Of a stretch of DNA of 64,000 nt, positions 29,587 through 30,655 are shown in pieces (position 1 is the stretch's first letter; every line of letters begins with the position of its first letter). Origin of the DNA: Nocardia bhagyanarayanae (GTDB lineage: Bacteria; Actinomycetota; Actinomycetes; Mycobacteriales; Mycobacteriaceae); the NCBI RefSeq assembly GCF_006716565.1, contig NZ_VFPG01000001.1, positions 5,022,001 to 5,086,000 of the forward strand, given 5' to 3'. The position numbers and the translations under genes were made by a program. The notes beneath the pieces are model-generated. The model did not search any database, had not been told where the DNA came from, and was given only the letters and a program-made list of their open reading frames with translations.

Positions 29587-29718
29587 GCCTGCGCCTCGCT
29601 GACGCTCGGCTCCGGCATGCGCGAGGCACGCTGGCACATGATTCGCTCACTTCGTTCACTCATCGGCCACCTCCGTGTGTGCGCACCGCCGTGCACGCCA
29701 CGCCGGTGACTTCGCACC

Positions 29719-30138
29719 CTAACGCGCGCTGCCGGACGACGGTTCGTCGCCAGCAGACGCATGGCCGGACCCTGCACCGTCGTCGTCTCGGCCGCAGGGA
29801 TGTGAATCCGCCCGCGCGGGAGCGGATTTCACGAATTTCAGGCCGATGACGCAGGCGATGATGCCGCCGAGGAAGGCGATCTTGCTCGCCGAGACGGTCT
29901 CGGCGCCGGTGGCCATGGCGTACCCGACGGTGAGCGCCGCACCGATGCCGATCCACACGGCGTAGGCCACACCGATCGGTATGCGCCGGGTGGCCAGCGC
30001 CAACCCGATCATGCTCACCGCCAAGGCGATACCGAACACCGCTGTGGGCACGGCCCGCGACAATCCGTCCGACATGCCGAGCGCGGTCGCCCACACGGCC
30101 TCGAACACCGCGCTGACGATCAGAAGCGGCCACGCCAT
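29719..30138 (-). CDS. SMR-family transporter, probable guanidinium exporter subunit B
   Basis: Four-helix small multidrug resistance protein. The essential glutamate lies in helix 1 (SAVFEAVWATALG) and a Gdx-type helix 3 segment is present (GVAYAVWIGIGAALTVGYAM). At 139 aa it is longer than the usual 105; the extra 35 residues after LKFVKSAPA are hydrophilic. The ATG follows the stop of the paired SMR gene by one base, so the two are coupled and likely form a heterodimer. The upstream riboswitch points to guanidinium as substrate. Confidence 0.9.
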   Translation of the reverse strand: MAWPLLIVSAVFEAVWATALGMSDGLSRAVPTAVFGIALAVSMIGLALATRRIPIGVAYAVWIGIGAALTVGYAMATGAETVSASKIAFLGGIIACVIGLKFVKSAPARADSHPCGRDDDGAGSGHASAGDEPSSGSAR

Positions 30139-30139
30139 C

Positions 30140-30454
30140 TCAGCTCACCGCCTTCAGCCCGGCCACACAGGCGACCAGCCCGCACAGCAGCAGTGTCCGC
30201 GCCAAGCTCGCCCGCTCCTTTCCAGTCAGCACCGCCCACACCGCGGTGAGCACCGCGCCGACGCCGACCCACACCGCGTAGGCGGTGCCGGTGGGCAGGG
30301 TACGCATCGCGAAGGCCAGGCCGAGCATGCTGGCGACGAGCGCCGCCGCGAACACGAGGGTGGGAACGAGACGCCGGAAACCGCGGGATTCGGCGAGCGC
30401 CGTGGCCCATACGGCTTCCAACACCCCGGCGACGAGAAGAACGACCCAAGCCAC
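30140..30454 (-). CDS. SMR-family transporter, probable guanidinium exporter subunit A
   Basis: First gene of the pair, 104 aa, four membrane helices. Helix 1 has AGVLEAVWATALAESRGF with the proton/cation-binding Glu, and helix 3 reads TGTAYAVWVGVGAVLTAVWA. GTG 30454 with GGAGG 6 bases upstream. That ribosome site lies inside a hairpin that can compete with the guanidine-III riboswitch just upstream, which argues for ligand-controlled translation. Gdx/SugE-type export of guanidinium in exchange for protons is the expected activity. Confidence 0.92.
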   Translation of the reverse strand: MAWVVLLVAGVLEAVWATALAESRGFRRLVPTLVFAAALVASMLGLAFAMRTLPTGTAYAVWVGVGAVLTAVWAVLTGKERASLARTLLLCGLVACVAGLKAVS

Positions 30455-30468
30455 GACCGACCTCCATG

Positions 30469-30508
30469 GTCAGTCTTGTCGCTGTCCGGGTACTGAGCCC
30501 TCGTCCGG
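30469..30508 (-). promoter_or_regulatory. Guanidine-III (ykkC-III) riboswitch
   Basis: Reading the minus strand: CCGGACGAGG (30508-30499), a variable loop, GTACCCGG, then CAGCGACAAGACTGA. This matches the ykkC-III pattern as I remember it (CCGGACGAGG, GUACCCGG, GACAAGAC). The loop bases TCAGT (30496-30492) pair with ACTGA (30474-30470) to make the expected pseudoknot. It lies just upstream of the SMR pair, the class of gene this riboswitch controls in actinobacteria. Confidence 0.88.
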
Positions 30509-30655
30509 AGGCCCGCCGCGGGCCTTGTCTTCGACGCTAGCACGCGACGTAAGCGGCGGATGGTGAGCTTGGTTACCGGCCCGCTACGGCCGACTTCCGG
30601 CCGGGCGTGCGCCAATGCGCTTGCCGCGACATTGCATTCGATGCCATCGCCGACA

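Follow-up and report, generated by a model that had tools for sequence, protein, structure and literature searches.

In a 64,000-nt stretch of Nocardia bhagyanarayanae DNA, hereafter called the window, a guanidine-III riboswitch very probably controls a two-gene operon for a Gdx exporter as a translational ON switch. The aptamer strand and the arm that pairs over the ribosome site of the first gene are mutually exclusive, as expected for a switch of this type, because the same bases (30474-30470) take part in both pairings. Both were conserved within the genus, where they also covaried on most measures. All coordinates below are positions in the window, and the riboswitch and both small multidrug resistance (SMR) genes lie on its minus strand. 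Related loci fetched for comparison are designated by L numbers.

The aptamer and the hairpin before the start codon

The preliminary description of this leader had staked its assignment on a covariance search, and the Rfam scan returned a match to the guanidine-III (ykkC-III) model RF01763 at 30465-30528 (-). The score was 58.3 bits, well over the gathering cut-off of 36 (E 1.8e-9), and the alignment covered the full model (positions 1-67). No other Rfam match at gathering threshold was present in the window. This was the one guanidine-III copy found in the genome, in which no guanidine-I match was detected. By its sequence, the segment 30465-30528 (-) is a guanidine-III riboswitch.

Its landmarks are those of an H-type pseudoknot, in which the strands of each of two helices are complementary. 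The first helix, which we take to be the one labelled P1, pairs CCGG (30508-30505) with CCGG (30489-30486), and thus spans 30486-30508 (-); these strands are replaced by GCGG/CCGC in L054 and by CTGG/CCAG in L081. The second helix, P2, joins TCAGT (30496-30492) to ACTGA (30474-30470), a pairing already pointed out in the preliminary description and confirmed here. The leader hairpin of the Rfam model, GGCCC/GGGCC, lies on the 5' side (30510-30524). On the 3' side, the start codon of SMR1, a Gdx-type gene, comes 20 nt after the P2 3' strand begins.

Upstream of the aptamer, TAGCGT (30534-30539 (-)), with TGC just 5' of it, is what we infer to be a candidate -10 element; a sigma-70 scan gave no match to back it. 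If it is a -10 element, transcription could possibly start near the 5' end of the aptamer. This region reads TGCTAGCGT in L001, L035 and L036, TGCTAGCCT in L028 and TGCTACGTT in L026. Two stretches 5' of the aptamer, GGTAACCAAGCTCACC (30562-30577 (-)) and TGCTAGCGT (30534-30542 (-)), were largely retained in L035 and L036 and partly in L028, a retention that suggests a promoter or an operator. The motif TCACC was seen again in several other listed leaders.

Between the aptamer and SMR1, the hairpin GACTGACC-ATGGA-GGTCGGTC (30455-30475 (-), 8 bp, -11.8 kcal/mol) competes with P2. Its arms run from 30475 to 30468 and from 30462 to 30455 and include one G-U pair (U30472-G30458), and ACTGA forms a portion of the 5' arm. 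The ribosome site GGAGG (30461-30465) is distributed between the loop, which holds GGA, and the 3' arm, which holds GG, and the stem ends right before the GTG start codon (30454-30452). Stem length, G-U pair, placing of the ribosome site and abutment on the start codon all read as previously described. So does the mutual exclusion of the two structures, since hairpin and P2 have five bases in common (30474-30470).

The 24-nt hairpin folded at -13.5 kcal/mol (z -3.63), which none of 200 shuffles equalled. Across the 21 nt located 5' of starts, equally good folding was seen at only two of the 131 SD-like sites of the window, the hairpin studied here being one of the two, and at four of 393 control starts. 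The controls were putative SD-like starts of open frames of at least 80 aa, taken from the flanks of the fetched loci. Folding of the whole 91-nt leader was unexceptional (z -1.59, 10 of 200 shuffles as good).

An intrinsic terminator, acting on transcription instead of translation, could also be imagined for this leader, since one terminator-like pattern is present (30459-30442 (-)). It consists of a 5-bp stem, an 8-base loop and a broken T-run, it overlaps the start codon and the early coding part of SMR1, and chance alone would produce 0.2 patterns of this kind. Terminator control was rejected on account of the weakness and position of this sole pattern, and we regard it as scarcely credible.

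Conservation of the two pairings among related leaders

Guanidine-III matches were found in 85 of 148 Nocardia genomes, in 236 of 397 genomes of the order and in 51 of 396 genomes of the phylum, the three samples overlapping. A total of 223 loci was fetched, comprising each of the 89 places found within the genus and the better-scoring part of the order and phylum matches listed. A sequence pattern read 192 of these; among the 31 unread loci, three belonged to the genus (L060, L080, L085). When 13 loci were scanned with Rfam, 11 had a guanidine-III match above the cut-off, including eight of the nine pattern-unread loci in the scan. True aptamers were therefore lost at the pattern step.

Removal from the 192 loci of four without a start and two with a poor pattern score left 186 leaders, corresponding to 152 unique segments. 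The segments of L054, L008 and L108 were cut by hand (arbitrarily for L108), L086 was dropped, and 12 segments outside 18-32 nt were excluded. The test set contained 138 unique segments of 18-32 nt, extending from the P2 strand to the start codon, 55 from Nocardia and 83 from other taxa. A second set came from named genomes searched with SMR2 as the query. Among the 80 loci listed, 43 had the pattern and 41 a start; eight of them had already been seen, and 33 were tested. Kinship in the hairpin tests was handled only by removal of duplicates and collapse to strand classes.

Each segment was compared with shuffles of its other bases, P2 strand and ribosome site being kept fixed. Nocardia segments folded at -9.56 kcal/mol, versus a mean of -5.10 kcal/mol for the shuffles (n=55). 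The natural hairpin beat the median shuffle in 54 of the 55 unique sequences, its rank being at most 0.05 in 25, at most 0.1 in 41 and above 0.5 in a single one. For the other taxa the energies were -7.10 versus -5.19 kcal/mol, with ranks of at most 0.05 in 22/83, at most 0.1 in 29/83 and above 0.5 in 23/83. In the second set, 10/33 leaders ranked at 0.1 or below and 8/33 above 0.5.

Swapping the downstream pieces among leaders gave a similar test of the fit between the two halves of the hairpin. The natural mean was reached in none of 5000 permutations, for Nocardia and for the other set alike, and by 71 of 5000 swaps in the second set. With each strand class reduced to one randomly chosen member, it was reached in 0/5000 permutations for the 12 Nocardia classes and in 3/5000 for the 23 other classes.

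A CC end is common in P2 strands and a GG end in ribosome sites, so that some pairing between them is automatic and the hairpin might be a by-product of the two. Permuted partners still paired at about -6.6 kcal/mol in Nocardia, and part of the stability is therefore free. In contrast to what a by-product would predict, shuffling with the ribosome site retained cost the Nocardia segments an average of about 4.5 kcal/mol. Moreover, the triplet GTC stood right before the start in 31/55 Nocardia leaders, about 15 times the frequency at control starts (15/393), and it pairs with the GAC of the aptamer outside the ribosome site. We judge a by-product very unlikely, and a mere composition effect was rejected by the shuffle, permutation and control-start comparisons. 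GTC was found at the same place in 41/83 other leaders and 14/33 leaders of the second set; the complementary GAC of the aptamer was invariant in 35 aligned Nocardia leaders.

The alignment of these 35 leaders was used to follow the two pairings side by side. P2 was paired in 96.6% of 175 cells, a level that none of 500 shuffles reached. The hairpin, in the register of the window, was standard-paired in 82.9% of 280 cells, versus 30.4-53.6% when slid by one to three columns. Its pairing percentage was reached by one shuffle in 500, and so was its covariation score. Pairs with changes on both sides showed no clear excess for P2 (88 of 500 shuffles reached the same count) and no excess for the hairpin (3 versus a shuffle mean of 2.8, with 370 of 500 as high). 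The consensus given by RNAalifold on this alignment consisted of P2 and two further pairs and lacked the hairpin, because RNAalifold cannot hold both pairings together. The preliminary description had suggested aligning orthologous leaders to see whether both pairings covary: in Nocardia they do so on most measures, but the count of double changes in the hairpin does not rise above shuffles.

Individual leaders illustrate how the stem varies. Among the closest relatives bearing an SMR pair, the segment is identical in L035, a U-G pair has become U-A in L036, and an A-U pair has become G-U in L028. L026 retains the stem, with its start codon a few bases later. Different stems occupy the same place elsewhere in the genus, for instance one of 10 bp (GGTGTGAACC/GGTTCACACC) in L015. 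A mismatch interrupts the hairpin in a second pair-bearing Nocardia clade (L054 onward), and the energy of L056 is a mere -2.5 kcal/mol.

Taken by sequence and predicted folding, the hairpin is kept within Nocardia and is patchy beyond the genus. Conservation of the anti-ribosome-site stem, on which the preliminary description depended, stood for the genus (54/55 leaders) and did not extend evenly outside it (29/83 ranks at or below 0.1, 23/83 above 0.5). That the hairpin might be universal in guanidine-III leaders was rejected in view of the ranks above 0.5 in these 23 leaders and in 8/33 of the second set.

Some leaders had another arrangement. In L106, L175, L190, L194 and L222, a long hairpin (GCAGTG...CACTGC, or nearly so) starts at the P2 strand and stops just short of the ribosome site; in L106, L175 and L194, further pairing around the ribosome site closes this platform again. 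The 12 unique leaders without an SMR gene behind them had a median energy of -4.1 kcal/mol, and nine of the 12 precede frames that start alike (L090, L092, L094, L097, L098, L103, L164, L173 and L179). These frames are 382-388 aa long where whole, those of L164, L173 and L179 being cut by the end of the locus. The two that were scanned, in L098 and L103, belong to the arginase family PF00491. Hairpins before the like-starting frames were weak in eight of the nine (-1.3 to -4.5 kcal/mol), L103 having -8.6 kcal/mol.

The SMR gene pair behind the riboswitch

The leader is followed by two Gdx-type genes, SMR1 (30140-30454 (-), 104 aa, GTG start) and SMR2 (29719-30138 (-), 139 aa). Both matched PF00893 (76.5 and 61 bits, respectively, for a cut-off of 23.7), they are separated by one nucleotide (TGA G ATG), and their charge biases are opposite, in line with the SMR pair of the preliminary description. 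The solved structure nearest in sequence to each was 6wk5, named Gdx-Clo (PMC7695847), and the residues E13, W16, S42, Y59 and W62 are all present in both proteins. W16 is a marker of Gdx proteins, the Qac subtype having Gly or Ala there (PMC7695847). Scores against the SugE equivalog NF008512 (NCBIfam) were 96.6 bits for SMR1 and 65.7 bits for SMR2, below its cut-off of 126, and the two proteins were therefore not assigned to it.

With loop boundaries that we set ourselves, the Arg/Lys charge bias was -4 for SMR1 and +5 for SMR2, the latter being about +2 without its C-terminal tail. The same computation on 18 pairs gave a bias of -4 to -6 for SMR1 in all of them, whereas that of SMR2 was positive in 14, zero in three and -1 in one. 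Distributions around +4 and -4 have been described for paired SMRs (PMC9574504). From these sequence features, SMR1 and SMR2 appear to be a Gdx-like guanidinium exporter pair, with putative transport.

The hydrophilic tail of 35 residues previously noticed on the second protein is real (SMR2 residues 105-139) but unconserved. Total lengths of SMR2 were 139, 117, 121, 126 and 140 aa in the five closest loci and 110 aa in the second pair clade, and no tail motif common to these relatives was seen. A conserved role for the tail was rejected and is indeed unlikely, since both its length and its sequence vary among the relatives examined.

Pairs were the minority arrangement. Among the 86 Nocardia loci parsed, 14 had a pair, 69 a single gene and three no SMR gene; outside the genus, the corresponding numbers were four, 87 and 15 for 106 parsed loci. 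L008 (Nocardia) and L108 (outside), whose SMR gene downstream of the riboswitch is broken into two reading frames, were not counted as pairs, and L008 was counted as single. The N. bhagyanarayanae genome carries two more PF00893 genes. For the best 20 named relatives of SMR2, guanidine-III was found at 16 loci and guanidine-II at two. In the second set, an SMR2-like match lay about one gene behind the aptamer start in 13/33 loci. Named genomes with guanidine-III before SMR2-like genes include Nocardiopsis, Kocuria and Oerskovia, so that this arrangement is not special to the N. bhagyanarayanae genome.

Further observations were made around these loci. The ACTG variant of the P2 strand was present in 8/55 unique Nocardia segments, all with SMR pairs, the others having single genes. 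This link is loose outside the genus, where L124, L126 and L136 combine ACTG with a single gene and L214 combines ACGG with a pair. Two Nocardia genomes have a second guanidine-III copy (L071 and L088), in which no SMR start follows and the aptamer passes directly into the 3' end of an SMR-like frame. By their sequence, these copies look like remnants of internal deletions; the L071 aptamer still scores 45 bits, and L088 gave no match above the cut-off. Finally, GAACGAAGTGAGCGAATCATG (29637-29657 (-)), between SMR2 and an enoyl-CoA hydratase gene, has seven copies in the genome with at most one mismatch, versus none for the reversed-pattern control.

A proposed switch and its relation to known systems

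Isolated P2 strands were computed at -4.4 (core) to -7.0 kcal/mol (extended), a figure outside which P1 and tertiary contacts fall, versus -11.8 kcal/mol for the hairpin. Because of this difference, the model suggests that the hairpin would be the default state without ligand. To open the region from the ribosome site through the start codon, the free strand required 12.9 kcal/mol; with the six leading bases of the hairpin made unavailable, 4.6 kcal/mol sufficed. Blocking these bases is a stand-in for the pseudoknot, the energy models including neither pseudoknot nor ligand. In the blocked state, the AGG of TGGAGG was free (probability unpaired 0.88-0.90) and its TGG was mostly paired elsewhere (0.18-0.39 unpaired). 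The drop in opening cost exceeded 2 kcal/mol in 32/55 Nocardia leaders and 31/83 others, and was at most 0.5 kcal/mol in 11/55 and 26/83, respectively.

We propose that, in the absence of guanidine, the 3' strand of P2 would pair with the bases right before the start codon. The resulting 8-bp hairpin, which abuts GTG, would sequester the ribosome site and keep translation low. Guanidine would stabilise the pseudoknot, which would reclaim ACTGA and open the hairpin, and ribosomes could then start on SMR1. SMR2 would be translated by translational coupling across the 1-nt gap, and the two products may assemble into an antiparallel heterodimer exporting guanidinium.

The general part of this scheme has precedents. 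In the proposal of Huang et al. (PMC5696562), guanidine would stabilise the fold at the expense of competing structures and expose the ribosome site; they rate the functional mechanism of guanidine-III as less well established and, in the parts of the article covered, mention only competing structures near the ribosome site. The review PMC12186494 gives the same translational model together with protection from RNase E, which it ascribes to guanidine-III citing Richards and Belasco 2021. The aptamer might accordingly work mainly via mRNA stability, with the guanidine-bound pseudoknot as a block to 5'-end scanning by RNase E and a secondary part for the hairpin, and the position of the aptamer near the probable 5' end of the mRNA would suit such a role. 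Yet the covariation of the bases before the start with the P2 strand is left unexplained by mRNA stability, which could also work jointly with control of translation. We consider a mainly stabilising role possible but doubtful, and translational switching through the hairpin remains our preferred reading.

The closest described system is the guanidine-III riboswitch of Thermobifida fusca (5NWQ, PMC5696562). It resembles the present one in its match to the full-length model, its P2 helix, the SMR gene just downstream and the proposed exposure of the ribosome site. In the T. fusca leader, as far as it is described there, the ribosome site lies 16 nt from the 3' end of the aptamer and the competing structure is unspecified, whereas the Nocardia window has an explicit competing hairpin, which is built with the P2 strand and reaches up to the start codon. 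Guanidine-II riboswitches (RF01068) have also been described as translational ON switches (PMC12186494), but they have a different aptamer, which had no match in the window. On the protein side, paired Gdx (SugE) exporters as presented in PMC9574504 and PMC7695847 have the same SMR fold, E13/W16/S42/W62, adjacent genes and opposite Arg/Lys bias; the window pair differs from them by the unconserved 35-residue C-terminal tail of SMR2 and by scores below the SugE equivalog cut-off. Genes associated with guanidine-III include emrE and speB (PMC2864571).

The general switch model (PMC5696562, PMC12186494) and paired Gdx exporters are thus already published. No earlier drawing of the 8-bp hairpin was found in the literature covered, which includes parts of PMC7736828, PMC7266159 and PMC8492726 and excludes Sherlock and Breaker 2017 and Richards and Belasco 2021. 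What is new is the comparative support, from aligned and folded leaders, for one expression platform that has a strand in common with the aptamer.

For general biology, this looks like an ordinary guanidine detoxification operon. It is ordinary in kind and well supported, a clear and well-conserved example of a known switch type. The leader and its relatives offer a concrete 21-nt competing structure with natural compensatory variants, which makes the guanidine-III platform easy to test. In Nocardia, aptamer and expression platform are probably fused without a linker, the P2 3' strand being itself the anti-ribosome-site arm. Each change in this strand would then have to be matched twice, by the P2 5' strand and by the bases preceding the start codon, and the conserved GAC would favour GTC right 5' of the start. 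If this is true, guanidine-III would be among the cases in which selection on an aptamer is felt as far as the start codon, ribosome site included.
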